Virus record (IMG/VR): IMGVR_UViG_3300044956_000413
Span: 1 to 32,756 of that record
Length of the DNA stretch: 32,756 nucleotides
Direction: 5' to 3' (one strand)
Source: a virus
Shown: positions 8,701 to 32,493 of the stretch, one piece after another
How the letters are laid out: each line of letters starts with the position of its first letter
Position numbering within the stretch: the first letter of the stretch is position 1
Translations under genes and position numbers: made by a program
The notes under the pieces: model-generated
The model's input: only the letters and a program-made list of their open reading frames with translations
What the model was told of the DNA's origin: nothing
Database searches by the model: none

Positions 8701-9077
8701 AGACATTTTCAACTATTGCTCCAATAGTTATTGACACATTCTCAGCAAAAGATATTTACACAGCTAAGTATCTAATTCAAATTCACAACAAATATGTTGG
8801 TCCAACTAACGTACAAAATCAAGAAATAAAATATTTACATTCTACAGAAATTATGATTGTTCACGACGGAGTAGATGTAATGATTAGTGAATATGGTACG
8901 TTATTAACAAAGAATCTTGGAGAATTTACTGCAACTCTTGAAAATAATATTATATCAGTTAAGTATACGCCAACGCCTGTTAATGGCGTTCCTGCGGGTA
9001 ATCCAGGAGGATTCTGGAGTGGAGTTACGGATGTTATTTCTAATGTAATCAGATTAAACAGAGATTTCTTAACATAA
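2769..9077 (+). CDS. Giant fibre-like virion protein with beta-helix and degenerate cupredoxin-like segment, 2102 aa
   Basis: An intact 2102-codon frame begins MAVREVLKTYTFEQQ. Residues about 55-360 hold two cycles of a fibre repeat (GDLTIQGGDI, LLITEG, VTIHKN, then GNVTTINSTTVTVDDKNLEL). Residues about 480-600 (IYVSKGGSDTVYDG, AFKTIKKAAEAA, YLPKGTTLIGDN) look like a right-handed parallel beta-helix of the pectate-lyase type. Around 918-978 there is a GINTKF...SDTQLTL beta module that recurs in the 2602-aa protein. Residues about 1305-1438 carry SSGHTFEYVGSGVNY and a later KAVRDFI. Residues about 1890-1960 resemble a cupredoxin-like fold (GHPLFITT...LYYQDGSD) lacking the usual Cys and His ligands. 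The last ~110 residues (IMIVHDGVDVMISEYGTL) match a C-terminal domain I know from marine phage structural proteins. Likely a baseplate-attached fibre or tail-pin-like protein; correspondence with T4 gp10 is possible but unproven. The start is preceded by AAGAGAA. Confidence 0.85.
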   Translation: MAVREVLKTYTFEQQRQEINNLSNDVGDANSLTTTSKVLTQAINDIVGGSQQLVNATLTGDLTIQGGDIYLQDAATDVFIRDNVLNALLITEGANPYISVDTIDGSELVTIHKNALIGGNLTVNGDITFRAGQGSSGSITLGDGNTDNIVFGADVNSSIIPNTNNAYNLGSSSQIWSSIFLTTISGGINADITIDPNGTGDFIFKGGVGQNFIINDGTLQKFKIESETGSVFFGGPINVPGGITLTDNTVNAFTITEGTNSYFTIDTVNNAEKVIVHKNLDVLGDLYVAGNVTTINSTTVTVDDKNLELGSVATPTDITADGGGITLKAAQDKTIKWLQSSNSWEFNVPTRIEDGLKISQNAITNTNSTASDITVTPGLDRVVILDTRAGLVMPKGTTLQRPNTPIATDGLVRFNTTTNEIEAFVGNEFTSLTKQFKFGITAPGPTLGNNGDFYYDKVKQEFYGPKEGGSWPAPICIKEDKSENVIYVSKGGSDTVYDGSTPAKAFKTIKKAAEAARATTGNTTIKVASGDYYEDNPIYLPKGTTLIGDNLRETLIRPINPGVDMIWVTSGCYVAQLVMRDNYGDPNNSVDALRGIGAVSSGINPFISSTISTFNLFPGHNLKDIDDIYKDGANILQYRRTNLITYAYSQLVAGYPSLVIPPTNFVGRLVLGSPIVTGVSSIQGLEVTDVVTGNNITPGTTIISIDSATQITLSDPAIAGENGAILSVPGDGKCKRDLGVILDAIIHDLKVGGNVKSILAGESYRDANGNLQHITTEFIETKYAIDQLRLAARQDIADTSIINELGFTSQFPVITVGDCTNVQTNIDNLFGIIVSILDGADSPQFNPGPGYLLIDQEWMRIDDITGNVVTVSTNGRGVANPITGAQSIAAPHPNGAVVTQGGRIFRYAVSYPDQGGIKGTGRITLQSSTSVVQGINTKFTSQTFAGGSIRVQNTSYTILSVQSDTQLTLSTVPSSSISLTIYKFIPPKERIFLSPYIQNCSVISVLGETSYDSNIKAYDSTKTRGGGLLIDGANLLIDTPLKSMVADAFTQVVLNSIGFHLKNDAYSQLVSIFEIFEDVGVLCESGGYASVTNSATNFGNEGLKAIGFSPVALPFYSNGRVAGVTNITKTSFATTASSIIQTTFSSVLSGAKTRVTVKVSANDISKFERGQIVTISNHTATPNINGANIEIETVKFSDNYFTFILNTPFLSQYAPPYSGGTSGSVVVTSGSTFTKVTVINFQKAPQANQIVKIDQLPVAPDGEYIVDEVFVFSPPDQENVCEFSLVQKVPNADISLIPNNAFCELRSPSSVNSSGHTFEYVGSGVNYMALPTNGGRAITSKQSVEINSGKCYVSATDQDGNFTVGPNFNVDLRTGKATFTGAVAIGVLDSLQLKGSPGTPIFAFSTNVDLGGSANRSDTILPTQKAVRDFIVDKVGNFFDLDVGTSSQAGIVVQLDGTGKINRDQIPPQEPFNVYVVDTDADRLVGAIPTLSKTVVSHSIGSNVITLNNLVQVAAGYAVTGTNVPVNGLVDAKIVSFDTQNNTITLDVPGANFTSQITGTITIKNAIPLKVGDFVVQTNSTNPPSRSYILANLPSTVNGNWQVISSEQVDASQIVSGIVSPSRLGTRISNENTFLSGLSKYVPLPRGVRAVPNSVSGTTIISLGSDGPISVKRTTQSVSISSAFYTVSGNPTFTFNTATAHGLTTDDYVEVDSVSPGSYNGYYQVTVVNATRFTVPAAVNPGVYSNGGTVTKGDPYKTGFLDLDVNIAKFSAGQSAGSSEYGVASFDYSTFEMLSSTGFSVTLRDKGVTLSKIENIGPRSILGNTFYNEQNVAEVPLRGFAAEIFEYETIPNVSGAWEINELVTARSLGIRPQLQMVTGQSIKFVLRTSNAGHPLFITTFPGQTGTLANPPASVYNIGVTKFSSSVQSGGSGIDIGEIVVTVTQDTPSVLYYQDGSDSTNYGIINITNFRGTTVNVSQTFSTIAPIVIDTFSAKDIYTAKYLIQIHNKYVGPTNVQNQEIKYLHSTEIMIVHDGVDVMISEYGTLLTKNLGEFTATLENNIISVKYTPTPVNGVPAGNPGGFWSGVTDVISNVIRLNRDFLT

Positions 9078-9080
9078 ATA
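9073..9080 (+). promoter_or_regulatory. Probable T4-type late promoter (CATAAATA)
   Basis: CATAAATA differs from the T4 late consensus TATAAATA at the first base only. It overlaps the stop codon of the 2102-aa gene and lies 27 bases before the ATG of the 62-aa gene, a normal late-leader distance. The same ten bases, AACATAAATA, occur in front of the minus-strand fibre operon, which supports the assignment. Confidence 0.55.
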
Positions 9081-9107
9081 GAGCGTATCGTAATTTTTTA
9101 ATCACAT

Positions 9108-9296
9108 ATGAATGCTGAAACTTTAAGGACCAATTTTAACAATCAACTAAAAGAAACTGAAGGTCAAATCGCTAAGATAAAAGGCGAATTAGAAAAACTG
9201 GAAGAGTATAAACTAAAGTTGCAAGGCGGTTTGGAAACTTTAGAATTGTTATCTGCACAAGAAAGCGAAGAAGAAGCAGCGACTACAGCAGAGTAA
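9108..9296 (+). CDS. Small coiled-coil protein with acidic tail, 62 aa
   Basis: The product is 62 residues. Residues about 8-50 are a continuous charged heptad pattern (LKETEGQIAKIKGELEKLEEYKLKL), so a long helix or coiled coil is expected. The last 12 residues are strongly acidic (ESEEEAATTAE). The ATG has no clear Shine-Dalgarno sequence (leader AATTTTTTAATCACAT), but a late-promoter box lies about 28 bases upstream. This is the last plus-strand gene before the inverted fibre cassette and it converges on the 94-aa gene with 17 bases between the stop codons. I recall similar small helical proteins in cyanophage structural clusters, with no established function. A fibre-assembly chaperone is conceivable, but that is inference. 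Confidence 0.7.
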   Translation: MNAETLRTNFNNQLKETEGQIAKIKGELEKLEEYKLKLQGGLETLELLSAQESEEEAATTAE

Positions 9297-9315
9297 AAAA
9301 TAGACGTCTTTTTTT
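9295..9315. terminator. Possible weak bidirectional terminator between convergent genes
   Basis: An A-run, the palindrome AGACGTCT and a T-run form a near-symmetric dyad centred at about 9305/9306, with one mismatch. It lies between the plus-strand stop (9294-9296) and the minus-strand stop (9314-9316), and each strand reads into a T-tract. The stem is short and AT-rich, so termination would be weak. Confidence 0.35.
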
Positions 9316-9598
9316 ATCGGTTGAAATAACCTCTCGGAAATAGTTGCCCGAATCGTGGTCTACGACCAGTGAGAATTCCTGGAGTTGATGAACGACTTCC
9401 TGTTACGGGAGAATCTAAATTTGCAATATTATAATTATAAGAAATTGCAATATTATTGGAAGTTCTTGCTACTGAAGAAAATACAGGATTAATAAATCCC
9501 GTTGCGGTTGTTTGTGTAAATGCAACTAATTGATTTACTGCCGCGGCATCTGCCGTTGTTGCTGTTGTTGGTGTTTCCGATAAAATTATTTGTGGCAT
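9314..9598 (-). CDS. Small fibre-associated protein, 94 aa, function unknown
   Basis: This is the last gene of the three-gene minus-strand operon. Its ATG overlaps the TGA of the 780-aa gene in TGATG, so translation is probably coupled. The N-terminus (MPQIILSETPTTATTADAAA) is Thr/Ala-rich and the middle looks beta-rich (ISYNYNIANLDSPVTGSRSS). The C-terminus is short and basic-aromatic (GRRPRFGQLFPRGYFNR), a tail I recall seeing on cyanophage fibre-region proteins. The coupling to a fibre gene suggests a fibre-tip subunit or an assembly partner. No catalytic motif is visible. Confidence 0.7.
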   Translation of the reverse strand: MPQIILSETPTTATTADAAAVNQLVAFTQTTATGFINPVFSSVARTSNNIAISYNYNIANLDSPVTGSRSSTPGILTGRRPRFGQLFPRGYFNR

Positions 9599-11940
9599 CA
9601 GATTGTCCTCGCAGCAAAGATTATACCTATAGAACTATTGCCGTCTATATTATCCAATCCATTTTGTGATTTTTGATATCCAGCAAGAATAATTTCGTAC
9701 ATTTCAGATGAACTTATTGTTATTGTATCTCCAGTTCTAAACTCTGTTAGTCCAGGAGAAGTTGAAACTTGCAACATAATATAATCATCTGGAAGATAAT
9801 ATGGACAGGGCATTAAATGATTTGAAATTGGAATTCCTTTCATTGGTTTATAATAGTTTGCTAAAGGTGACACTGTTTTAATTCTGTCAGAATTATTCAT
9901 TGTATCGTGATTATTTTTCGTTCCATCATAAGTTGAATTTCTGTAATAAGTAATGACGTTTCTATCAGAATTCTTTGAATCTATATTGGATTCATAGATA
10001 GTTGTTGATGTATAATAATCTTTAGCGTTGCGAAGATATCCATAATTAGCTTCTCTAGCTAATGAATAATTATTGACAGGTTCGCTTGATGGATTAATAT
10101 TTTCTGTATAAAAATTATTAGCACCAGGGCATTTATAATTCATTGCAATACTTCTTCCGGAGTAAATATTATATTCTGTCATACCACCATTCCAAACATA
10201 ATTTAAGTCCCAAACATTTGATCCAAAATTACTTCCTTTGTTAATAGAGAATGTAGCAAATGGAGTTATAACATTATTAATTGTTTGAGTAAATTGTATT
10301 ACTGCAAAATTTGTATCTTGTGGAGATTGAGCTTTATATAATCTTATCGATAAAGGATATGACGTTGGAGTTGAAGAAGTAGCATAATCAAGGTATGTTG
10401 GTTGGTAATAGTAGATTGGCGAGGTAGTGTGAATATAATTATAAGGATCTTGATAATCTAATCCTCTATCTCCTTCATAAAATCCATAGTCATATTGTCC
10501 ATTTATACCAGATGCATTTGTTCCTCTTTTATTCAATAAAGACCACATAGGTCCAGAATTGATATACATTCTATAATTGTTGGAATCTAATCCAAAACCA
10601 TAGTACGTTGTACCAAAAATTTTGCTTGCATCGTTTACATTTTTTAGCACAGCAAAATGACCAAAAGAACTCTTCTGGTACATAGTATTTCCAGATCCAT
10701 AGTTTGTTGTAAGTAAATTACAAACACCGTTAAATGTTGATTGCTCTGCTGATGTTGCGCTATTGGCACCTACTAAAATATCATTAGTTCCATTAACTCC
10801 ACCAATAGCAGAACCAGGAATAGTGCAACTTTCGTTTATTCCCCAACCAGATCCTCTGCTGTATATTTGTATTCCAGCTACTCTACCAAAATGTGTTGAT
10901 TGATATGGGAAACGAAAAACTTTAATATTTAATGAGGATCTTCCATAAGAAGCAGGAATAATATACTTCCAATATGGATAATATGTGGTATATCCAGTAC
11001 TATCATTTTTTAGACCTGGCAATATTCTAATTACTCCACGCATAGCAGAATTATTAGAATTGCCGTACCCATATGAATAGATTCCAGTTAATCCTGTTCC
11101 TGGAATATTTTCTATATTCATTACTTCGGTTTCTGTTTGTGGCCATCCCGACACTCGCCATAATACGTTAGAAGTTCCGTTACCAGTAGGAAATGTTTGA
11201 TAACTTACTCCCGTGTAATTAGTTGTGTTTAGTACTCTGTTTGCTGTATATCCTGTTGAGGGACTATCAATCAAAAAGAAATTACCACCGCTTGTTGTAT
11301 CATTAATTATAAAATTAAGAGTATCTCCCATTTCAACATCAATTTGATAATTGTTGTATAAAACATTAAATTGTCTTCTTAGCGGAATATTGGACAATGA
11401 TCCAAAAACTTGCGTAATATTAATTGCAGTACCATTTGAAGCGTTTTCTAAAGTTTCAGCTAACTTAATATTATTTCCATCTACTCTAATTGCATAATAT
11501 GTTCCATTATTTACTAACGGATTAATACTACCAGATGAATTATCAGGATTCCACACAACAGGATCCCCTGTTTGTAATAAATGCCCTACACCAGTAGTAT
11601 ATGTGGAAATTTGTAAAGTATCATTTGCAAGATTATAATTACTGACATACCATTGTTCCAATAAATTATATGACGAAGTACCATTATTGGTTACATAAAA
11701 AGTTCTTGTCATTGAAGAATTTCCTGTTATTGCTGGTCCACCACAGAATCTCCAATTTGGATCGCCAAGATTAATAGAATTATTTCCTGGTGCTTGAAAT
11801 GCTACGGGAGAACCAGAAATAGTACTTCCGCCGTTCCATCCAAGTTGACTAAAAGCAATTTCTAATGCATCCAGTACCTGTTGACGATTCCATCCAGAGT
11901 TTCCGTTATTAACATTAATAACTGATTTAAAAATTGCCAT
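9598..11940 (-). CDS. Fibre-like virion structural protein, 780 aa
   Basis: The N-terminus reads MAIFKSVINVNNGNSGWNRQQVLDALE, a cap I remember from cyanophage structural proteins; it may be the attachment part. Residues about 107-190 contain one copy of the His-Gly-Leu module (TLQISTYTTGVGH, LLQTGDPVVW, TYYAIRVDGNNIKLAET, NGTAINI), the same module that is repeated in the 2602-aa plus-strand protein. The rest is Asn/Tyr/Ser-rich and beta-like. The C-terminus (YYLPDDYIMLQV, GDTITISSSEMYEII, GIIFAARTI) also matches a recurring fibre end domain. A good GGAG ribosome site lies just before the start, inside the end of the 899-aa gene, with only 3 bases between the genes. Probable receptor-binding tip or accessory fibre. 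Confidence 0.8.
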   Translation of the reverse strand: MAIFKSVINVNNGNSGWNRQQVLDALEIAFSQLGWNGGSTISGSPVAFQAPGNNSINLGDPNWRFCGGPAITGNSSMTRTFYVTNNGTSSYNLLEQWYVSNYNLANDTLQISTYTTGVGHLLQTGDPVVWNPDNSSGSINPLVNNGTYYAIRVDGNNIKLAETLENASNGTAINITQVFGSLSNIPLRRQFNVLYNNYQIDVEMGDTLNFIINDTTSGGNFFLIDSPSTGYTANRVLNTTNYTGVSYQTFPTGNGTSNVLWRVSGWPQTETEVMNIENIPGTGLTGIYSYGYGNSNNSAMRGVIRILPGLKNDSTGYTTYYPYWKYIIPASYGRSSLNIKVFRFPYQSTHFGRVAGIQIYSRGSGWGINESCTIPGSAIGGVNGTNDILVGANSATSAEQSTFNGVCNLLTTNYGSGNTMYQKSSFGHFAVLKNVNDASKIFGTTYYGFGLDSNNYRMYINSGPMWSLLNKRGTNASGINGQYDYGFYEGDRGLDYQDPYNYIHTTSPIYYYQPTYLDYATSSTPTSYPLSIRLYKAQSPQDTNFAVIQFTQTINNVITPFATFSINKGSNFGSNVWDLNYVWNGGMTEYNIYSGRSIAMNYKCPGANNFYTENINPSSEPVNNYSLAREANYGYLRNAKDYYTSTTIYESNIDSKNSDRNVITYYRNSTYDGTKNNHDTMNNSDRIKTVSPLANYYKPMKGIPISNHLMPCPYYLPDDYIMLQVSTSPGLTEFRTGDTITISSSEMYEIILAGYQKSQNGLDNIDGNSSIGIIFAARTI

Positions 11941-11943
11941 TTT

Positions 11944-14643
11944 TTATTCTCCGATCTTTAATACTGTTAGAGTAACTGTAATTGCTGTAGAAGAGGTACT
12001 TCTGTTTGTAACAGAAAGATAAATTGTAGTTGTTCTTGGGTTGTCATTATTAAAACCCAAAATACCAGGACTGATTAACACTGTATTTGTAACACCATCG
12101 GTTCTAATTTCACTAATTACGCCAGTTCCAACAAGAGGGTCTTGACCTTCACTTCTGGTGGCATCAGCATCTCTTGATGCGTCATCTGTATAAACACGAA
12201 CCCATGCTTCTGCAGTGGTAGTAATTTTAAATAATGAATAGGCTTTGTATCCTGTAATATTTAGTTCTGTAGTTGCGTCAGGAGCAAGAGAAGTAGTAAT
12301 TCCTGATAAATCTTGAATTGAAGGAACGCTCGATGCTACCGAAGCACTGACAACTCCGTTGCCATCAATTGTTAATCCAGAACCAATCTTGATGCCACCA
12401 AGAACGCTTGCTGTTGCGGTTGGCAAAGTATAAGATCCTGGATTAGCATCAAGTACACCTGTAACTGAATTAATACTTAGATTGGCACCTACTTTAATAC
12501 CACCGAGTACTGATGCGGTTGCTATTGGTAACGTGTACGCTGAAGGAATGAAGGGTTTATTTCTAATAAAATCAAGCGATGCATTATTAGTTTGATTCCA
12601 ATCCGATTGAACTGGAGCAACGCTACCTATTGTAATTCTTTTATTTCCAGAATCCCAATTGACTGTAGTGCCAGCACTTCCAGCGATTTCAACACTATCA
12701 GTTAATCCAGTACTGGGAACTAAATCAAGGAAAGCATTATTACTAGTAGTGTTTCTTCCTTGAAAATCATAAGTAATTACAGTTCCTCCTCCTCCGCCGC
12801 CTCCACTTACAATTGTGTTAATTACTTTGTTGACACTATCATAAGTATACGAAATACCGACTTTGCTTCCGTTGATTAGCATCAAAGCTGCAGCATCTTT
12901 TGCTAATCCATCGGTATATTGAGTTACTGTATTAGCAGGTGCTCTGAATGTAATTGTGGTTGCATTAGTTCTTTCTATTTGTAATCCATCTGCACCAGCA
13001 AAAGTAATGTCGGTGTTTGTAGTTGCAACACCAATTTCTTGTAATCTTAGTTTTATTTGATTACCAGTAGCAGTTTCTGTACTAAAATTATAAACTTTGC
13101 CCGCTAAAGTTAATTGATTATTAACTGTGGATATTGTAATACCAGATGTTGCTCTAATTGTTATATCACTGTTAGCACCCCCAGAAGCAGATAATCTAAG
13201 AATTTTTCTTTCTGCGTTTTGCTGAATTGTTCCTTCAGTATAATCTTGTGTGGATATTGAATATGTTTGTTGAAAGTTTCCTATTAATGTTTGAAGATCT
13301 GATGATGTTGAACTGTTTGTAGTAACAATTCTTTGGTTTGTCCAACTACTATTATGTGAATAATATAAAGCACCACCAGATTCTGTATATGCTACAGCAC
13401 CAGCATTAGCAGCAGCAGAAGGAAGTTCTGCTAATGAAGAATAATAAAAAGGAATTAAATTTTTTACTTTTGGTGCTGTAATTGCACCATCATCTCCAAT
13501 AGTAACTAGAGAGTTTTGTACTTCAAGACCATTTATTCCATTAAATCTGGCAATTGCTTTATCAGTAGAAGTAATTGGACCAATTATAGTTCCACTACCA
13601 CCTCCGACGCCAGATCCTCCAGCTGGTGCAGGTGCCCATTGTGTACCATCCCAACGAAGAATATTACCTGTTATAGGTACTGCACTAGAAACATTATTAA
13701 GGTTTTGAAGTAATGTTGGAATAGTTGGTTTGCCAGTGAGATCAACATATGCACCACTAAACAATGTTGGTTTATTTAAAATTGCTGAAACACCTGCTGT
13801 TGCATTCCAATCAGATTGAACTTGCGCTGCTGGAATTGTAGGGCGATTCAAAAGATTATTATAATTATTGTAATCTATAGGAACAGGAATATTAAAATAA
13901 GTTGTTCCATCATTTGTAAATTCCCATCTATCACTCAACTCATTCCAGCGAAGTTCGGTATCAGGAAATAATCCTCTGTTAATAATTATATTTGCATTTG
14001 ATGTTGGTTGACCCACAACATTATCATTTAAAACAACCTGATTATTTTGAATATTCAAAGTGGTTAGATTATTAGTTGTGATAGTACCAGATACATTTAA
14101 ATTTCCAGTAATAGAAGCGTTGCTAAATGTAGGTGAACTATTTTCTGATACAAAACTAACCGTAGACCAAGTAACTCCAGTTCCAGTACTTGTTAAATAT
14201 TGACCAGAATTACCACTACTACCATTCACCGATAATGAAGTAATATTTAATCCATTTGGAAATGATGGAGATCCAGTTCCAGCAAGGTTTGTAATTGAAT
14301 TTGTTAATGTACTTGCAGAAGAAATTGATGTATTTACTACCAACGATGAAAATGCTTCAGATGCATTTTTTACTGCATATCCTGTTAGTAATGGTGGGGT
14401 GTAAGTGAGAACACCAGAATTGCTATTATATGATAACTCTCCCGATCCCGATGCTCCTTGTGTAGTAATACTTAAACTGGGCGGAGTTGATCCTCCTCCT
14501 CCACCACCGCCTGTTGCGATTGCGTTTACTCTTCCATTTACAGAATCGTAAGCAAAACTAATGCCACTATGAAATCCATTTATTAAAAGGTTTGCAGCGA
14601 TTTTTTCAACTGTTGACCAAGGAAATTGGTTTGGTGATGGCAT
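11944..14643 (-). CDS. Tail fibre protein with duplicated Gly-hinge segments, 899 aa
   Basis: I place the start at the ATG encoding MPSPNQFPWSTVEK (14643). A longer frame to 14748 would include a late promoter box, and GGAAAATATA precedes the chosen ATG. Residues 17-51 (LLINGFHSGISFAYDSVNGR then seven Gly) recur near 585-619 (MLINGSKVGISYTYDSVNK then seven Gly), an internal duplication with Gly hinges. QSDWN...LNKP/RNKP repeats lie near 274 and 677, and TLPxATASVLGGIK repeats near 704-768. All are common phage tail-fibre building blocks. A segment near residues 400-430 (ELPSAAANAGAVAYTESGGALYYS) is also fibre-like. The C-terminal ~130 residues (AWVRVYTDDASRDADATRS, GILGFNNDNP, LTVLKIGE) look like a compact beta-sandwich I recall at the ends of cyanophage fibres. 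It is the first gene of a minus-strand operon inside a plus-strand cluster. Likely host-recognition fibre. Confidence 0.85.
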   Translation of the reverse strand: MPSPNQFPWSTVEKIAANLLINGFHSGISFAYDSVNGRVNAIATGGGGGGGSTPPSLSITTQGASGSGELSYNSNSGVLTYTPPLLTGYAVKNASEAFSSLVVNTSISSASTLTNSITNLAGTGSPSFPNGLNITSLSVNGSSGNSGQYLTSTGTGVTWSTVSFVSENSSPTFSNASITGNLNVSGTITTNNLTTLNIQNNQVVLNDNVVGQPTSNANIIINRGLFPDTELRWNELSDRWEFTNDGTTYFNIPVPIDYNNYNNLLNRPTIPAAQVQSDWNATAGVSAILNKPTLFSGAYVDLTGKPTIPTLLQNLNNVSSAVPITGNILRWDGTQWAPAPAGGSGVGGGSGTIIGPITSTDKAIARFNGINGLEVQNSLVTIGDDGAITAPKVKNLIPFYYSSLAELPSAAANAGAVAYTESGGALYYSHNSSWTNQRIVTTNSSTSSDLQTLIGNFQQTYSISTQDYTEGTIQQNAERKILRLSASGGANSDITIRATSGITISTVNNQLTLAGKVYNFSTETATGNQIKLRLQEIGVATTNTDITFAGADGLQIERTNATTITFRAPANTVTQYTDGLAKDAAALMLINGSKVGISYTYDSVNKVINTIVSGGGGGGGTVITYDFQGRNTTSNNAFLDLVPSTGLTDSVEIAGSAGTTVNWDSGNKRITIGSVAPVQSDWNQTNNASLDFIRNKPFIPSAYTLPIATASVLGGIKVGANLSINSVTGVLDANPGSYTLPTATASVLGGIKIGSGLTIDGNGVVSASVASSVPSIQDLSGITTSLAPDATTELNITGYKAYSLFKITTTAEAWVRVYTDDASRDADATRSEGQDPLVGTGVISEIRTDGVTNTVLISPGILGFNNDNPRTTTIYLSVTNRSTSSTAITVTLTVLKIGE

Positions 14644-14672
14644 TATATTTTCCGATACTTTTTTCCTAAAGA

Positions 14673-14680
14673 TATTTATG
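14673..14680 (-). promoter_or_regulatory. Late promoter for the minus-strand fibre operon (CATAAATA)
   Basis: Reading the minus strand from 14680 gives CATAAATA, one base from the T4 late consensus. It ends 29 bases before the ATG at 14643, leaving a short leader. It is preceded by AA, as is the box at 9073. It supports the shorter start of the 899-aa gene, because a start further upstream would not be on this transcript. Confidence 0.7.
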
Positions 14681-14699
14681 TTTTGAATTTTTTTTTTCT

Positions 14700-14707
14700 T
14701 ATAAATA
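14700..14707 (+). promoter_or_regulatory. Late promoter (TATAAATA), divergent pair member
   Basis: A perfect match to the T4 late-promoter box. It lies 39 bases before the ATG of the 89-aa gene and only 19 bases from the minus-strand box, so the two promoters are arranged back to back around a T-rich tract. It should drive the 14747-26710 fibre genes. Confidence 0.85.
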
Positions 14708-14726
14708 ATCATAGAAAAATTTAGCA

Positions 14727-14746
14727 GAAGGGGAGAGTGAACCTTC
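14727..14746 (+). promoter_or_regulatory. Ribosome site in a small inverted repeat
   Basis: GAAGG (14727-14731) pairs with CCTTC (14742-14746), leaving the core GGAG (14732-14735) in a 10-base loop just before the ATG at 14747. The stem is only five pairs, so any effect on translation is uncertain. Confidence 0.35.
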
Positions 14747-15016
14747 ATGGCAACGAATGCTAAGGCGTTCGTCGTTAAAAACGGCGTCGTCGTACAAAAT
14801 CAAAATAAATTAGAGTTACAAGAATTGTCTATCAATGGAGACAATTCAGTATCACTAAGAGCTCCTGCCTCTCTTTCTGCTAATTATACGTTGACTTTAC
14901 CATCTGACGATGGTATAGATAGACAGGTGTTGCAAACGAATGGATCTGGAGATCTATCGTGGGTAACTCCTGTTTTTGTTGAAGATGTTTTAGCATTATC
15001 AATTGCATTGGGATAA
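14747..15016 (+). CDS. Short fibre-type protein (adaptor stub), 89 aa
   Basis: The sequence begins MATNAKAFVVKNGVVVQNQN and continues with SVSLRAPASLSANYTLTLPSDDG and QVLQTNGSGDLSWV. In cyanophages as I know them, these segments open much longer fibre proteins: the first is the N-terminal cap and the second a common spacer. Here the frame ends after 89 residues (VEDVLALSIALG), leaving only the cap. It may be the remnant of a fibre whose distal part was lost or replaced, or a free-standing adaptor. It starts under a strong late promoter with a good ribosome site, and its stop is one base from the next ATG, so it is probably still translated. The first 15 codons use unusually many C- and G-ending codons for this genome. 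Confidence 0.75.
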   Translation: MATNAKAFVVKNGVVVQNQNKLELQELSINGDNSVSLRAPASLSANYTLTLPSDDGIDRQVLQTNGSGDLSWVTPVFVEDVLALSIALG

Positions 15017-15017
15017 A

Positions 15018-15350
15018 ATGGCAACTAACACCTTTAGATCTAAAGTAAGTGCTGCAGTTGGAACTAGTTTTACTTCTGTATATACTACACCTGCAAATAC
15101 CGTATCAATTATTATTGGTCTTAACCTTGCATGTGTGGCAACTTCTTCTGTCGTTGCTGATGTACTTATTGATAAAGCAGTTGGAGCTGATGCTAATTTA
15201 ATTAAAAATATTCCTATTCCTACGGGATCTTCTTTTGAAGTATTATCTGGACAGAAGATTGTATTGGAAGTTGGAGATATTGTAAAGGTGAGATGTGATA
15301 CCGCTGGTGGCATGGATGTATTATTAAGCTTTTTAGAAATTATTAATTAA
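15018..15350 (+). CDS. Small beta-rich virion-associated protein, 110 aa
   Basis: The start is set at the ATG at 15018 (MATNTFRSKVSAAVG). An in-frame TTG at 15003 would add MHWDK only and overlap the previous gene, so it is less likely. The pattern is that of a small beta-sandwich: alternating hydrophobic strands (SVYTTPANTVSIIIGLNLA, VVADVLI), a glycine turn before GQKIVLEVGDIVKV, and a final strand LLSFLEIIN. Similar ~110-aa proteins with a GDSV-type motif and a short ILEI end occur in cyanophage structural regions as I remember them. A virion decoration or fibre-base protein is likely. It is cotranscribed with its neighbours, and CGGAG for the next gene follows its stop. Confidence 0.7.
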   Translation: MATNTFRSKVSAAVGTSFTSVYTTPANTVSIIIGLNLACVATSSVVADVLIDKAVGADANLIKNIPIPTGSSFEVLSGQKIVLEVGDIVKVRCDTAGGMDVLLSFLEIIN

Positions 15351-15361
15351 TACGGAGTAAT

Positions 15362-17590
15362 ATGCCATACTTAGGTATAAGTCCTACGAGGACAGATAAT
15401 AGAAAACTCGACACTCCGCTGCAAAGAGTTGGTGGAGGAGTTGGATTTAATGGATCCATAACTCAATTTTATTTGACTATTGAAGGAGAACCAGTTTATC
15501 CAGATACCGAACTTCTTCTTCAAGCAGTTCTAAACGGAGGACAACTTAATCCAAAAGTTGATTTTACAATTGAAACTAATATAATTACTTTTGCTATTGC
15601 TCCTTCTCAGGGAGCGATTTTCTTTGGTATTTTAGGAGATCGAATTTCTCTTAATAAACCAGGAACAGATACTGTTACTACTATTAGTATTAAAGACAGT
15701 GCAGTAACAACTGCAAAAATTGCAGATAATGCAATCACTAGTGAAAAAATTGCTGCTGGTACAGTAATCGCAGCGGACGTAGCAGATGGTGCAATTACAA
15801 CCATCAAACTAGATGGAACTCCAGGTGCAGAAGCAGTATCAACTGCTAAAATTAGAGATCTTAATATTACAACTTCAAAACTAGATAGTTCTGCAGTAAC
15901 AACTGCAAAAATTGCAGATTCTGCTGTAGATGCATTAAAATTAAAATCAAGTGCTTCCGTTGATGCAGATCGAGCGGTAACAACTAATCATATCCGTGAT
16001 TTAAATATCACCACTAGTAAATTAGCTGGTAATTCAGTAGATTCTTCCAAATTAAAAAGTAGTCCTCTTGTAGATTCTGACAGAGCAATAACTACAAATC
16101 ATATTCGTGATTTAACTATAACCAGTGATAAATTGACAACAGAGTCAGTAACTTCTGAGAAAATTGCAACTGGTTCAATCGTAAATACAAAAATAGCAAA
16201 TGGAGCAGTTACTTCAGAAAAATTAAATATTACAGTTCTTACTGATCCAATAAATCCCACAGATGGTCAGTTAATTTTTAATACCTTTACAAATGCTCCA
16301 AAAATTTACAACCAATCGCAAACCAGATGGGAAGAAATTCTCACCCAATCCACATCTGGTTCTTTAGTTGGTTGGACATTTCTTGCTGCTATTCCAACAT
16401 TAATTTCTGCATTTACAGAAAGAAACACCCAGGTATCTCCAGAAACTGTTGTTAAAAGTTATGCGTTTAATGAAAATCCATTTGTTCCTAGACATGTAAT
16501 TGTTACGAATGGTGGTAAAATCTCATCATCAAATGATTTAAATTCTTGGTCAGCAAGAACATCAGGAACTCCTAATAATTTAAATTCTGTTTCTTGGGGC
16601 GGAACTTTCTTTTTTGCGGGAGGAAATGCAAATACTTTATGCACTTCATCAAATGGAGAAAGTTGGACTACTGCGTTTGGTCCGTTTGGGTCTAGTAACG
16701 GTGATATTACTGCAACTTATGCTGCAAATAACTTAGTATTACTAGGAACTTCTTTTGGAGAAATTGCAGGTGGAGTGTCATTTACTTTGAGAAATAGTAA
16801 TTTATCTTCGTCAATTACATCATTTGCATACAATAACAATGTATTTGTTGCAGGAGGATCTGCTGGTGATATATCTTCTTCTAGTGATACTACAATATGG
16901 ACACGGAGATTAAATATTGGTGGACTAAACAAAGTACATCTACAACCATTTGGAACTGGATTTATAGCTGTAATTGATAATCAAACAAATAATGACGTTG
17001 TTATAAAAACATCAACAAATGGTGTATCATGGACAGATCTCATTATTAATCCCGCAAATATTCAAACTGTACAATCTTTTAAATATTTTCCAGTGACTCA
17101 AGCTTACTTGATTGTTGATCAAAATGGAAATAGTTTAAGATCAACAAATGGAAAAGATTGGGCGGTTTTTAATCAACCAGTTTTTGAATTTGGAACTAGT
17201 ATTTCAATTTCTGATTTTAATTATGTTGAGCAAAGTGGTGTGCAGTACTTTTTAATGATGGGAACAAAAAATGTGAGTGGAACTTTAAGTCCATATTTTG
17301 TTACTGCAACTTTTAATGTAACGAATAATCAACTTGAATCGAATAAAAATTACATTGTTGATACATCATACGGTTTAATTAGCGCTAGTTTGCCTAATAA
17401 CCCTAACATTGGGGATATTGTTAGATTAGCCGATGGTGCAAATACTTGGGGCACCTCAAATGCCGTAATTAATGCAAATAATAAATCATTCTTAGTTAGT
17501 ACAGGTGTTATTGATAATGCATTAATTCTTGATTATTCTGGTGTAAATATTGATTTAATATGGACAGGTTCATATTGGAGAGTTTACTAA
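15362..17590 (+). CDS. Tail fibre with collagen-like shaft repeats and Asp-box beta-propeller, 742 aa
   Basis: Residues 1-100 are a conserved fibre-base domain (PYLGISPTRTDNRKLDTP, VLNGGQLNPKVDFTI). Residues about 105-295 are a shaft of short repeats (SAVTTAKIADNAITSEKIA, NHIRDLNITTSKL). Residues about 380-605 contain Asp-box-like motifs S-x-N/D-x-x-x-W: SSNDLNSW (389), TSSNGESW (428), SSSDTTIW (506), TSTNGVSW (550) and RSTNGKDW (593), spaced by 39-44 or twice that. This predicts about six blades of a sialidase-like beta-propeller with one degenerate blade near 467. The C-terminal ~80 residues (NYIVDTSYGLISASLP, GDIVRLADGA, DLIWTGSYWRVY) are a common phage fibre end domain. No sialidase catalytic arginine triad can be assigned, so glycan binding is a better guess than cleavage. 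CGGAG lies before the ATG. Confidence 0.85.
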   Translation: MPYLGISPTRTDNRKLDTPLQRVGGGVGFNGSITQFYLTIEGEPVYPDTELLLQAVLNGGQLNPKVDFTIETNIITFAIAPSQGAIFFGILGDRISLNKPGTDTVTTISIKDSAVTTAKIADNAITSEKIAAGTVIAADVADGAITTIKLDGTPGAEAVSTAKIRDLNITTSKLDSSAVTTAKIADSAVDALKLKSSASVDADRAVTTNHIRDLNITTSKLAGNSVDSSKLKSSPLVDSDRAITTNHIRDLTITSDKLTTESVTSEKIATGSIVNTKIANGAVTSEKLNITVLTDPINPTDGQLIFNTFTNAPKIYNQSQTRWEEILTQSTSGSLVGWTFLAAIPTLISAFTERNTQVSPETVVKSYAFNENPFVPRHVIVTNGGKISSSNDLNSWSARTSGTPNNLNSVSWGGTFFFAGGNANTLCTSSNGESWTTAFGPFGSSNGDITATYAANNLVLLGTSFGEIAGGVSFTLRNSNLSSSITSFAYNNNVFVAGGSAGDISSSSDTTIWTRRLNIGGLNKVHLQPFGTGFIAVIDNQTNNDVVIKTSTNGVSWTDLIINPANIQTVQSFKYFPVTQAYLIVDQNGNSLRSTNGKDWAVFNQPVFEFGTSISISDFNYVEQSGVQYFLMMGTKNVSGTLSPYFVTATFNVTNNQLESNKNYIVDTSYGLISASLPNNPNIGDIVRLADGANTWGTSNAVINANNKSFLVSTGVIDNALILDYSGVNIDLIWTGSYWRVY
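15701..16220 (+). repeat. Internal shaft repeats in the 742-aa fibre gene
   Basis: Short repeats coding for variants of AVTTAKIADNAIT. One 27-base unit beginning GCAGTAACAACTGCAAAAAT occurs identically at 15701-15727 and 15893-15919. Two longer degenerate units coding for DxDRAxTTNHIRDLxIT follow at about 15961 and 16075. Such repeats can drive length change of the shaft by recombination. Confidence 0.8.
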
Positions 17591-17591
17591 A

Positions 17592-17966
17592 ATGGCAATC
17601 AATTTAAGCAATTTAATAACAACAGGTTCTGGATCAGGAACTAACGTTTATGAATTTCATGCTCTTAAAAGATCTTCTGATGGTATGCTGATCTATACCT
17701 TAGAGGACACTGTTTCTAATACAGTTATTAATGTATTTAATGAACCCATAAATGGAGTATTTGCTCCTTTTAATGAGGATTACACAGATTCACTTCCTGC
17801 TAATCGTCAAAGAAATAACATCAACGATATGGGGGATTTAAATAGTGCTAATGATAAATACCAACAGTATAGATTTGAAAATAAAAAAGTGAGATATTTT
17901 ATTGATGATGATGGTTATATAGTCGCAAGATTAAATGCAAACTATTCTTACACAGGTCCAAAATAA
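17592..17966 (+). CDS. Conserved structural-region protein, 124 aa, function unknown
   Basis: It starts one base after the stop of the fibre gene, with GGAG in the end of that gene acting as the ribosome site. The sequence (MAINLSNLITTGSGSGTNVYEFHALKRSSDGMLIYTLED) gives no catalytic motif. The middle is polar with acidic patches, and the end has YFIDDDGYIVARLNANYSYTGPK, a beta-hairpin-like pattern. I recall a homologous small protein beside the chitin-binding-repeat protein in cyanophages. A virion component or assembly factor is the likely class. Confidence 0.65.
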   Translation: MAINLSNLITTGSGSGTNVYEFHALKRSSDGMLIYTLEDTVSNTVINVFNEPINGVFAPFNEDYTDSLPANRQRNNINDMGDLNSANDKYQQYRFENKKVRYFIDDDGYIVARLNANYSYTGPK

Positions 17967-17978
17967 TAGGAAACTAAA

Positions 17979-18878
17979 ATGGCAGATTTCAGATTAGGTA
18001 GATTAAAATTTAATTGGAGAGGCAATTGGAATGCTTCAACCGCATATGAAATTGATGATATTGTGAAGTTTGGTGGTAACACATATGTCTGTGTTGTCAA
18101 CCATACATCTGCCGCATCTGAAGCGGCATTTTATACTAATGATCTTGCGGCATCTCCAACAAGATGGAATGTTCATGTTCCAGGTAACGAAGTAAAAGGA
18201 ACATGGGCAGCAACCAGATTTTACAAACTAAATGATCTTGTTACTTATGGTAACACCATTTATGTTTGTACAACTCAACACACTTCAGAAAGCACATTCG
18301 ATGCTACAAAATTTTCAGTTTATTTAGATGGACTGAAGTTTGAAAATAACTGGAGTAGTTCAATTGAATATCAACAAGGAGATATTGTTGCTTATGGCGG
18401 ATATACATATACCGCCAAAACAATCAATACAAACGTAGTTCCTTCTTCAAGTTCTGCTGATTGGGGTCTCCTAGTCACTGGACTATCCCCAGTGGGAGCA
18501 TGGAGTGGAGCAACTGCTTATAAACCAGGTGATGTTGCCCAGTACGGTGGTTATCTTTATGTTGCTATTGCTAGCAACACTAATGTTAAACCTTCGTCAG
18601 ATGTAACTAAGTGGATATTTCTTCAAACTGGTCTTAAGTGGAGAGGCACTTGGAGTGCGGTTACCGATTATAACGTCGGGGAAATCGTATTTAAAAATGC
18701 TAGTGCTTATATAAATATTCAAGAATACACCATTGCTATTGGTGGTGCAAGAGATCCCGAACAAGCACCTGCTTTCTGGGAACTATTTGCTCAAGGTGAT
18801 AATACAAGTAATGTAACCGCACAAATTGCTGCAGTTAAGGCGGCAGCTTTGACATACTCGCTAACATTCGGATTCTAA
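17979..18878 (+). CDS. Virion protein made of five chitin-binding-like (CBM5/12-type) repeats, 299 aa
   Basis: Five repeats of 45-55 residues follow the pattern W-x4-Y-x2-G/D-D-I/V-V-x-Y/F-G-G-x-x-Y-x-C/A...W. They lie at about residues 11-66, 73-115, 119-165, 169-216 and 219-270. Clear examples are GNWNASTAYEIDDIVKFGGNTYVC and GAWSGATAYKPGDVAQYGGYLYVA. This is the signature of the chitin-binding type 3 / CBM5/12 fold, which uses exposed Trp and Tyr to bind polysaccharide. A related single unit is in the adjacent 2602-aa protein (GDWNASDNYLYGDIVIYRNSFY). No hydrolase domain is attached, so adhesion is the likely role. Repeat 5 lacks the GG turn and carries KNASAYIN. The ribosome site is AGGAAA, seven bases before the ATG. 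Confidence 0.85.
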   Translation: MADFRLGRLKFNWRGNWNASTAYEIDDIVKFGGNTYVCVVNHTSAASEAAFYTNDLAASPTRWNVHVPGNEVKGTWAATRFYKLNDLVTYGNTIYVCTTQHTSESTFDATKFSVYLDGLKFENNWSSSIEYQQGDIVAYGGYTYTAKTINTNVVPSSSSADWGLLVTGLSPVGAWSGATAYKPGDVAQYGGYLYVAIASNTNVKPSSDVTKWIFLQTGLKWRGTWSAVTDYNVGEIVFKNASAYINIQEYTIAIGGARDPEQAPAFWELFAQGDNTSNVTAQIAAVKAAALTYSLTFGF

Positions 18879-18901
18879 TTTAAAAGGAGAAGTAAACCAA
18901 A

Positions 18902-21900
18902 ATGGCAAGAAAATTAGCATTTGACTATACATTTAATAAAGCTGCTCGTCAGATTATATTGAATGGTAATGTCAACCCCAAGAGATTACTCTTAATCAAC
19001 AACGCAACCGCTAACATTGTTATCTATAACGTTGGCGATCCTGCTCTTAAAGCTACTAGCAACGTATATAACTCAATAACTGATAAAACAACAATTACAT
19101 TAAATTATGACACCACTGGAATGTCAGATACTGATGTTCTTCAGATTTTTACTGAACAAGATGGTGTAGAAATTAAACCCGTTGATACTCTGCTTGACCC
19201 AGTATCTAAGTTTCGTATGTCGGAACCAAATACTCTAATCGATACTGACTTTGAATATGGTCTACAGGCAACCAAATGGGAAACTCTAGAAAGAGCAAAT
19301 AATATTCCAGGATATTATTCGATTACTGGAGATACTCCTCTCACTAACATTTCAGATGTAACCACTAATGGTACCAATATTGTAACTGTGACAACTACAT
19401 CACCACACGGATTAACCACTGGTATTCCTGTTGATGTTCGTGGTCTTGATAGCATCACTGCAGAAGGAACTTTCCTCGTTCGCAAAACAACTGAATTTAC
19501 TTTCACATATGAAACAAGAACAGTTCAACCTGGTTCACCATCAGTTCCAGTCAGTATTAACACCGCTTATGTAACGATTACTACTGGTCGTTTTTATGTA
19601 CAGGCACAGATTCCTTTTGATAACAGTGCATCCATAGATGAAGGATCAGTTGTTACTAACAATGCATCTCCTAGCACACTAACGGTTACTACTCCATATA
19701 AGCATGGATTTAAAGTTGGTGCTCCTTTCTATCTAACAAATACTCTTTCAAATAAAAAAATAAATTTCTCATCTGCGTCAATCACTTCTGGTGGTAATGT
19801 AGAAGATAGAATTTCTTATTCGCTAGACACAGGTAACTTCAACCCATATGAACCGTTCCACATGGGAACTACTCTCCGTACAATTGATGCAGCGACATCA
19901 ATTTCTATAGTAAATGAAACGATTACTATTCCCAACCATGGACTTGTAACTGGTGATCCAATTACATATCTTGGTGCAACTGGTGCTCACCCAACTATTA
20001 ACGCTGTTACTGCTGGTAATTTTAACATATCTGGTGGTCAACTTCCTATTTATAATAATGGTACTGCTGCTGCTGCTTCTTCGTTCTTCTATGCGTTTGT
20101 CATTGACGCCGATACTATTAGATTAGCAACAAACCCGAAGAATGCTTACAACGGTGACACTTTGATCGATTTTCAGAGTACTGGTACTGGTACTCTCACA
20201 TTCTCTCTATTCAATAGCAGAGGTTATACATTACAGCAAAACATTTCTACGATTCAGACAATCAATGGTCAGTCAGAGATTAAAGTAACATTTAGTGGGA
20301 AAACAAACAAACAAATGCAGGTTTATCCTGAGCGTCAAATTACGCTTAGCGATACTGGTGTTGCTGGACTTGATGGTGTTTATGTTGTTAAAGCAACTCC
20401 TACAGCTTCAACATTTGCAAGTCAAAACTGGAGAGAAACTGATAGTTTCTTTATTATGGAAGGTCCAACAAACTCCACCGGTGGAGCTTTTAATAATCAA
20501 TCTTTTAGTGCTACATATACATTATCAAATACTGCAGCAGGAACAAATACTCTTCTAAGAACAAAGATCTTCGAGAATACATTCTCTCCAACCATTAATA
20601 GTGTTAGTGGCACTACTCTTAATGTAAGTGCTATGACATCTCTAGGCGACGGAGATCTTCCAACTCGTGTTGGATCTATTGTACGATTCACTAATATTGG
20701 ATCATTAACTGGTGTTGCAATTAATACAAACTATTTTATTTCTGCAGTAACATCAACATCTATTGCTATTTCAACAACACATCCCGCTTCATCTGCTGGA
20801 GTAACTCCTATTGTATTAGGCGGAACTACTGGAACTGCTGTGGTAAAAGTGTTCCGTTCTGGTGTTCGTGCTCAAATGCATGACGGTGCAACTTCGTGGA
20901 TGAATCACACTCGTTGTTCTATTCATGATTGGTGTTCAATCACTGGCAAAATGTTCACTCGTGAGTGTATATTTTCTAATAGAATTTTTATCAAGAATCA
21001 TGGTTTATCAAGTGGTGTTCCTATTATGTTTGTTGGAGGCGGTAACACCTGGAGTGGTGGTACAACACCTCCCGTAGAATCTGTTTCTCAATCTGCTATT
21101 TATTTTGTAGATGCAATTAATAAAGATGAAATTGAACTTCGTACTACAGAAGCGGTTGCTGGTGTTGGTCCTTACACTGGTTCTGTTGGAGCTACTAGTG
21201 TAAACTTTGTCACAGCAAACACATATGCTGGTGGCATATATCAAATTCACCCTGGTTTTACAGTTGACAGGTTCACCTCACCTGGTGGTGGTGCTGGTGG
21301 TGGTCGTGACCGTGTTATCGGTGCTTATACAAACCTCCCAGCATATATGACAGAAAAAGCAGAAATTGTTCTTAAAAATGGTACTGGTTCTTCTCTTCCT
21401 GGTTCAGTAACAGAAACTCCAAACACATATGCTAGCTATCAGAAATATTTTGCAAGAACTCTTATTAATTCTGGTCCTTCTACTGGAAGTGGCGAATTCT
21501 CTCTAACTCTTTCCGATAATGGTTCTCCAGTTAACTTCACGGCGGCACATACTACTGGTAGTGGTAGATTTATTGCTATTCGTATTTCTGAAAATATTTT
21601 CTCCAATAGTTTCTATCTACCAAATCATGGTGGTATTGTAGGTCAAAGAACTGCATATAGTATTACTGGTTCATTCACCAATGGTACTAGAGACACTCAG
21701 GCGATTTACCCAGCCACTGCAGGATTCCCTGGACCTCTATTTGATTATGTCACTGACTCTACTGGTGTTAACTGGCCAAGGGTTAATATGACTCTCACTC
21801 AACCAACTGGAACTGTGCAGGGACTCAGTAATACAGGTCAATATTACATGGTTCCCATAAATGATGATGTGTTTAAAGTACAAGCATTTGCTTCTAATAC

Positions 21901-30596: not shown

Positions 30597-30839
30597 ATGG
30601 ATACTAAAAATACTAAAACCTGCCCCAAGTGTGGGGCTATTTGGATTGGTGGTCAACATTTTTGGTTAGGAACTGCAAAAAAAGGAGATGAATCTGAACT
30701 TGCAAGTTTAGTGTGTGATAAATTTAAATACCAAGAATGCATCAATCCAGCACAAGGCACCACAAAAGGTGACGGGTGGGAAAAAAGATTAAATGGTATG
30801 GAAATAATAGAAAAAGATTTAAGGAGAATACATGAGTGA
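30597..30839 (+). CDS. Small zinc-ribbon-like protein, 80 aa
   Basis: The motif CPKCGAIWIGGQHFW (Cys9, Cys12) is followed by Cys40 and Cys48 (LVCDKFKYQECINP), giving four cysteines in a zinc-ribbon-like layout. The pattern C-x2-C...C-x7-C-I-N-P and a later GDGWEKRL match a small family I remember in cyanophages, function unknown. Its end overlaps the start of gp17 by eight bases, and the AAGGAG for gp17 lies within it, so the two are probably coupled. AAGG at 30583 is the likely ribosome site. A role as cofactor of gp17 is possible. Confidence 0.75.
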   Translation: MDTKNTKTCPKCGAIWIGGQHFWLGTAKKGDESELASLVCDKFKYQECINPAQGTTKGDGWEKRLNGMEIIEKDLRRIHE

Positions 30840-32493
30840 TGCAGTATATCTTGGTAATCCTAATTTAAAAAAAGCTAATACTGCTATTAGTTTTACAAAG
30901 GAACAAGTTGAAGAATTTATCAAATGCAAAGATGACCCAGTATACTTTGCAAGAAACTATGTAAAAATTATTTCACTTGATGAAGGTCTTGTTCCTTTTA
31001 AAATGTATGATTTCCAAGAACAATTGATTACGAACTTCCACGAAAACAGATTTAATATTGCCAAACTTCCAAGACAGACAGGAAAATCTACAACTGTTAT
31101 TTGTTATCTGTTGCATTATGCGGTCTTCAACGACAACATTAAAGTTGCTATTCTAGCAAATAAAGCAGAAACGTCAAGAGAACTTCTGTCACGTTTACAG
31201 CTTGCGTATGAGAACCTTCCTAAGTGGATGCAGCAAGGTATCATAGCATGGAACAAAGGTTCTATGGAACTGGATAATGGTTCCAAGATTGTAGCAGCAT
31301 CCACCTCATCATCTGCTGTGCGAGGAAACTCATTCAACATCATCTTCCTTGACGAGTTTGCGTTCGTTCCAAATCATATCGCAGAACAATTCTTCTCGTC
31401 TGTGTATCCTACCATCTCATCTGGTAAGAAAACAAAAGTTATTATCATTTCTACCCCACAGGGTATGAATATGTTTTACAAACTCTGGCATGATGCAGAA
31501 CGTGGAAAGAATGGTTATGTGCCTCTAGAAGTGCATTGGAGTCAAGTTCCTGGTCGTGATGCCAAATGGAAAGAAGAAACTATCAGGAATACTTCGGAAA
31601 GACAGTTTACGCAAGAGTTTGAGTGTGAGTTCTTGGGGTCGGTTGATACGCTCATCACAGCATCTAAGCTACGCTCTATGGTCTATGATGACCCTTTGCA
31701 TACAAACAAAGGATTGGCGGTCTATGAAGAAGTAATACCAGACCACGATTATATCATGACGGTTGATGTATCTCGTGGAACCAACAATGATTACTCCGCT
31801 TTTGTTGTATTCGACATTACCACACTGCCTTGGAAGGTAGTTGCTAAGTATCGCAACAACGAAATCAAACCAATTTTGTTTCCTAACATTATCGAACAGG
31901 TTGCTAAGAACTACAACAAAGCCTATATACTCGCAGAAGTGAATGACATTGGTGAGCAGGTAACAAATATTCTTCATTACGATTTAGAGTATCCAAATAT
32001 TCTAATGTGTGCGATGAGAGGTAGAGCAGGTCAGATTGTCGGTCAAGGATTTTCTGGAACCAAATCTCAGTTAGGTTTGAAAATGTCAAAGGTGACTAAA
32101 AAGGTTGGTTGTTCTAACTTGAAAACGTTGATTGAAGATGATAAGTTGTTAATTCCAGATTATGAAATCATTAGTGAGTTAACAACATTCATTCAAAAAA
32201 ATCAATCTTTTGAGGCGGACGATGGATATAACGATGATCTTGTAATGTGTTTGGTCTTGTTTGCGTGGTTGGCGGTTCAACCCTATTTCAGGGAGATGAC
32301 TGATAACGATGTTCGCAAGAGAATCTACGAAGAACAGAAAAATCAAATAGAACAAGATATGGCTCCCTTTGGATTTATATCAGATGGTGTTGATGATATA
32401 GAAGAAAAATTTATAGACGAAGATGGAAACGTTTGGTATACCGATGGATATGGCAATCCATATTCAGATGTAAAATACGTGTTAGGTTTCTGA
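30832..32493 (+). CDS. gp17: Large terminase subunit gp17 (packaging ATPase-nuclease)
   Basis: 553 residues, close to family length. The ATPase half shows the adenine-binding block FKMYDFQEQLI (~56-66), Walker A RQTGKST (81-87), Walker B IIFLDEF (170-176, with catalytic Glu175) and the coupling motif IISTPQG (205-211). The nuclease half shows VDVSRG (Asp312), LAEVNDIG (Glu369, Asp372) and the acidic end block EADDGYNDDLVM (Asp463-469), as in T4 gp17. All key residues are present, so the motor should be active. It powers DNA translocation into the prohead and cuts concatemers. No intein or homing endonuclease interrupts it. The AAGGAG site is 5 bases from the ATG. Confidence 0.97.
   Translation: MSDAVYLGNPNLKKANTAISFTKEQVEEFIKCKDDPVYFARNYVKIISLDEGLVPFKMYDFQEQLITNFHENRFNIAKLPRQTGKSTTVICYLLHYAVFNDNIKVAILANKAETSRELLSRLQLAYENLPKWMQQGIIAWNKGSMELDNGSKIVAASTSSSAVRGNSFNIIFLDEFAFVPNHIAEQFFSSVYPTISSGKKTKVIIISTPQGMNMFYKLWHDAERGKNGYVPLEVHWSQVPGRDAKWKEETIRNTSERQFTQEFECEFLGSVDTLITASKLRSMVYDDPLHTNKGLAVYEEVIPDHDYIMTVDVSRGTNNDYSAFVVFDITTLPWKVVAKYRNNEIKPILFPNIIEQVAKNYNKAYILAEVNDIGEQVTNILHYDLEYPNILMCAMRGRAGQIVGQGFSGTKSQLGLKMSKVTKKVGCSNLKTLIEDDKLLIPDYEIISELTTFIQKNQSFEADDGYNDDLVMCLVLFAWLAVQPYFREMTDNDVRKRIYEEQKNQIEQDMAPFGFISDGVDDIEEKFIDEDGNVWYTDGYGNPYSDVKYVLGF

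Follow-up and report, generated by a model that had tools for sequence, protein, structure and literature searches.

In T-even phages, the gp37 shaft gene of the long tail fibre is followed by the gp38 tip adhesin gene, which varies and recombines between phages. Cyanomyoviruses have no clear homologues of the T4 tail fibres (PMC2984593), and recognition of Synechococcus and Prochlorococcus by these phages is poorly known for that reason. The published consensus of their late promoters is NATAAATA (PMC2984593). Mobile cassettes (zwf/gnd/petE/PTOX, a hypothetical cluster, and LPS clusters) occur at varied locations in cyanomyovirus genomes, including near psbA (Sullivan et al., 2010; PMC3037559). 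Our literature search, which was limited in coverage, returned no account of the fibre module described here, of an inverted fibre cassette, or of a link from work on cyanophage evolution; such an absence is not proof.

The DNA analysed here (the window, 32.8 kb) is a late-region fragment of a T4-like cyanophage and encodes homologues of gp13, gp14, and gp15. Its nearest named relative is S-BM3, with 60% identity in gp13. Three minus-strand genes of 899, 780, and 94 aa (9314-14643) break up the plus-strand late structural cluster, and their open reading frames were confirmed as originally predicted. Every other plausible gene of the window is on the plus strand, and the leftover minus-strand frames are short and antisense. 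The features are as follows.

9108-9296, plus strand: conserved late gene of 62 aa (phrog_580), left neighbour of the cassette
9295-9315, both strands: putative bidirectional terminator between convergent genes; hairpin collapsed in the window, full in relatives
9314-9598, minus strand: 94-aa gene for the small module protein, conserved C-terminus GRRPxxGQLFPRGYFNR
9598-11940, minus strand: 780-aa gene, putative tip adhesin, conserved ends and variable middle
11944-14643, minus strand: 899-aa fibre gene, putative shaft, length counted from the conserved start
11944-12336, minus strand: C-terminal beta-sandwich, proposed docking domain of the 899-aa fibre, about residues 770-899
14673-14680, minus strand: predicted late promoter of the cassette, CATAAATA, 37 nt upstream of the 899-aa gene
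14700-14707, plus strand: predicted divergent late promoter, TATAAATA, 47 nt before the start of the right neighbour at 14747
14747-15016, plus strand: late gene of 89 aa, right neighbour of the cassette
30832-32493: terminase large subunit

The mechanical reading frame of the 899-aa gene extends to 14748. The 899-aa protein overlaps the PHROG tail-fibre families, and the 780-aa and 94-aa proteins of the window match nothing in Pfam or PHROGs. The cassette neighbours are late structural or unknown genes, with no endonuclease, plasmid-stability, or other mobility gene in or beside the cassette. The 62-aa gene directly precedes gp13 in many T4-like cyanophages, and a tblastn search with it against named phages gave no match. 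In the same gp8-gp13 variable stretch, P-SSM2 and S-SSM7 also carry minus-strand gene pairs just before gp13; unlike the window cassette, these encode a nucleotide-sugar epimerase and a partner (sugar metabolism) and occupy another exact site.

We collected 11 close relatives from IMG/VR whose contigs reach the site (8 with the full cassette and 3 cut by contig ends; two pairs are near-duplicates). Their flanking genes are mostly 64-95% identical to those of the window, and all 11 carry the minus-strand fibre at the same place. Misassembly as the source of the inverted layout was ruled out because the layout recurs in these independent contigs. The original prediction took the block to be mobile. 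Within the clade this does not hold, as the same genes stand at the same place and in the same orientation in every close relative that reaches the site; this comparison was the test that the prediction had proposed for itself, and the arrangement turned out to be old and fixed there. Further minus-strand genes were seen in this part of other contigs. L061 and L062 carry two minus-strand genes of about 200 aa just ahead of the 62-aa gene and gp13. L071 has a large block on the minus strand (10926-20114), located downstream of the 62-aa gene; one of the proteins encoded there, of 2080 aa, is related to the 2102-aa protein of the window. In L083 (3-4751), the inverted fibre at this site extends beyond the docking domain into more repeat domains and reaches at least 1583 aa at the contig end.

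The cassette appears to have its own transcription signals. As at T4-type late promoters, NATAAATA stands some tens of nucleotides before its first gene. By itself the motif is no rarity in such AT-rich DNA, with about 14 copies per strand expected from shuffling, so the weight lies on its position and its conservation in relatives. A minus-strand copy is found at -35 to -37 in all seven relatives tested. Over 37 dereplicated loci, nearly all outside the window clade, the motif lies 20-65 nt before the fibre gene in 22, versus none for the 780-type gene. The window likewise has no late promoter motif before the 780-aa or the 94-aa gene; CATAAATA occurs only before the 899-aa gene, which agrees with the claim of a single promoter for the cassette and predicts late expression. 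The divergent promoters claimed for 14673-14707 were also found, CATAAATA on the minus strand and TATAAATA on the plus strand. The dyad claimed for 9295-9315 is real, but weak in the window (about -1 to -2.7 kcal/mol) and strong only in the relatives. There the convergent genes are separated by a perfect GACCCC-loop-GGGGTC hairpin, flanked by A and T runs and with an energy of about -15 kcal/mol on both strands, which resembles a bidirectional terminator. The window version resembles this hairpin minus its top (about 10 nt, CCC-loop-GGG), which would be either a true deletion or an assembly error. Judged from these motifs, there is support for the cassette as a separate transcription unit that brings a late promoter and a terminator of its own.

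The same three genes were found at other addresses. Profile searches gave 80 loci, and the order of fibre, 780-type, and small protein is kept almost everywhere. About 40 further IMG/VR loci have a fibre gene and then a 780-type gene, with a GQLYPR(G) small protein next in nearly all of them; across the loci, the small protein ends in GRRPxxGQLYPRGYYNK or similar. Among named phages, ACG-2014i (Syn7803US120_165 to _167; 780-type homologue AIX26887.1), S-H9-1, Sf-CH1b, and S-BM3 have counterparts in the same order at about 30-50% identity. Unlike the window cassette, these copies are co-directional with their neighbours at other addresses and are annotated as hypothetical or tail fiber-like. 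The module lies after nrdAB/talC in ACG-2014i, S-H9-1, Sf-CH1b, and many contigs; co-directional within the gp8-gp13 cluster in phages of the S-BM3 type, among others; adjacent to psbA, either on its strand or opposite to it; with an 80-aa gene on one side and gp17 on the other in L201 and L202; and, in the contractile phage L161, flanked by a baseplate gene and by a terminase that belongs to a different PHROG family. With address labels assigned from the neighbouring genes, the tree of 780-type proteins (a quick tree with some long branches) needs 12 address changes, the least possible number being 7. The window clade is monophyletic on this tree (support 100), and its nearest relative, L162, carries the module divergent from psbA.

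Like the cassettes of Sullivan et al. (2010), the fibre module is thus one gene set at varied addresses, psbA among them. It differs from those metabolic, hypothetical, and LPS genes in consisting of structural fibre genes, and no flanking endonuclease or mobility gene accompanies it in the window. Relocation of the block over long evolutionary time agrees with the original prediction, since three-gene blocks stand at many addresses and in both orientations in other phages. The mobile-block reading is therefore partly supported: it holds over long evolutionary time and not within the clade, where the tip gene is the fast-moving part. Two other observations concern the 780-type genes. Eight loci (L169, L174, L175, L220, L221, L222, L225, and L230) carry two of them in tandem behind a single fibre gene, which points to duplicate or alternative tips. 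A search of bacterial genomes found 780-type proteins encoded on two contigs (L254 and L255, each about 9 kb) from marine MAGs; these contigs are most likely phage DNA binned into bacterial or archaeal MAGs.

The last ~120 residues of the 899-aa fibre form a confident predicted beta-sandwich, whose top PDB match is a weak one to the PRD1 vertex spike P5 (E 8e-4, TM about 0.33). A C-terminal domain of this type was confirmed in at least 560 viral loci, and the 780-type gene starts directly after it in the closer of these. We infer that this domain docks the 780-aa tip. The 780-aa protein has conserved N-terminal (VNNGNTGW..DALE) and C-terminal (PCPYYxPDD...ARTT) ends around a variable middle, and its predicted model is confident and mostly beta (pLDDT 88, pTM 0.84). 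A fold search of this model against the PDB gave nothing at E below 0.001, with cupredoxins weakly matching a sub-stretch. The module is like T-even gp37/gp38 in that a fibre gene is followed by a varying tip-type gene (about 40 loci), the shaft and tip identities here being putative. It is unlike gp37/gp38 in its third small conserved gene and in its relocation, with an inverted copy in the window; Pfam, PHROGs, and the PDB fold search gave no gp37 or gp38 homology for the 780-aa protein. A cupredoxin-like stretch is present in the 780-type proteins of L186, L189, L200, L206, and S-H9-1 (L007), where its Cys/His/Met copper-ligand motif appears intact (YYYVCQLHSSMNG, YYYQCSVSGHEGM); the Cys and His of this motif are absent from the 780-aa protein of the window.

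The 780-aa gene is exchanged by itself within the clade. When contigs 022752 and 042288 are compared, identity is 96-100% for the 2102-aa neighbour and for the 899-aa and 89-aa genes but 72% for the 780-aa gene, and the drop in nucleotide identity begins and stops near the two ends of that gene. In AU tests based on six sequences, the flank tree is rejected with the 780-aa alignment (p 0.018-0.019), and conversely the 780-aa tree with the 2102-aa alignment (p 0.0003). The trees of the 2102-aa and 899-aa proteins agree, and block-level swapping within the clade was rejected because the 899-aa tree is that of the flanks. Within the clade, the expectation of a swappable locus thus stands for the 780-aa gene and fails for the whole block; likewise, of the proposed variation in content and orientation between conserved flanks, the 780-aa content varies and the orientation is constant. 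At the right of the cassette, a 742-aa fibre gene and a 124-aa gene (15362-17966 in the window) also drop in identity, allele-like, between near-identical contigs.

The exchanged 780-aa protein might instead have another role in the virion, for instance as accessory decoration or as an enzyme that degrades the cell surface. Its lack of a fold match to any known receptor-binding protein would agree with this, as would the cupredoxin-like stretch of some members and the weak PHROG matches of some 780-type members to baseplate and fibre proteins. However, the obligate pairing after the fibre C-terminal domain, the conserved ends around a variable body, and the exchange of the tip gene alone suit an adhesin better, and we consider the other roles unlikely. 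The 780-aa protein would then be the receptor-binding tip adhesin.

How the cassette reached its place can be judged from a sister contig of 30 kb, L017 (IMGVR_UViG_3300001848_000290), in which the cassette is absent. There the 89-aa gene comes next after the 62-aa gene, across a gap of ~50 bp holding only the plus-strand TATAAATA, and all neighbours keep the window's order at 51-74% identity. The fibre profile has no match anywhere in this contig, and the 780-aa profile gives only short repeat-domain matches inside a 2600-aa structural gene. At none of the more distant loci holding the 62-aa gene does the cassette lie beside it. Because of these loci and the empty site of L017, the one such site known, insertion is likelier than loss. 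The cassette at this place is thus probably an insertion, and the original idea of a locus that moves as a block gains from the empty site with the same neighbours. Alternatively, an ancestral inverted layout may have been inherited vertically, without relocation, and lost in L017 and other lineages. The fixed arrangement within the clade and the single empty site would suit such a history. However, the more distant phages with the 62-aa gene lack the cassette beside it; ACG-2014i and Sf-CH1b carry the module ~55-65 kb away, co-directional, with none before gp13; and the nearest relative by the tip tree adjoins psbA. We therefore regard plain vertical inheritance as improbable.

A fibre segment of the invertible, phase-variable kind known from Mu (G) and P1 (C), caught in one orientation, could also give a reversed fibre block bounded by convergent and divergent junctions, but we rejected this very improbable switch because all 11 relatives share the place and the minus strand, with no contig in the opposite orientation, and because bounding repeats and a second, alternative fibre end are absent. 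Apart from shared promoter letters, no real inverted repeats bound the cassette; the repeats found are short and imperfect, the longest being 37 nt at 70% inside the 899-aa gene. No invertase gene was seen within the window. Variation of the DGR type was rejected as well, as no long direct repeat (a template/variable repeat pair) exists within 8900-15200.

In our view the cassette is likely to be a self-contained late unit that encodes the distal part of the fibre, where the host would be recognised, and that was inserted once and has had its tip gene exchanged since. It is best read as a portable transcription unit, with a proposed role in receptor binding, that encodes a shaft with a docking domain, a tip adhesin, and a small partner. 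The 899-aa protein would form the shaft, with the conserved beta-sandwich at its end for docking. The tip adhesin would be the 780-aa protein, whose ends are conserved and whose body varies, and the 94-aa protein would be a small obligate partner, possibly an assembly factor or a cap. In the ancestor of the clade, a single insertion would have placed a copy of the widespread three-gene module in reverse orientation between the 62-aa and 89-aa genes. Its own NATAAATA promoter and bidirectional terminator would allow late expression without reading into the convergent neighbour. Since insertion, the block would have been stationary, and host specificity was probably altered when homologous recombination in the conserved flanks replaced the tip gene.

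In a broader and more tentative proposal, the set of docking-domain fibre, 780-type tip, and small GQLYPRG protein may be a general host-recognition unit of marine cyanomyoviruses: a portable late unit that moved as a block among several addresses, on both strands and into at least one unrelated contractile lineage, and whose tip is exchanged alone within lineages. The tail fibre genes of these viruses have long been described as missing. A module with a single fast-exchanging gene offers a concrete adhesin candidate that is directly testable in ACG-2014i and S-H9-1. A further suggestion from the inverted, fixed copy is that relocation of T4-like late genes, together with a promoter and terminator of their own, can leave the late cluster undisturbed.
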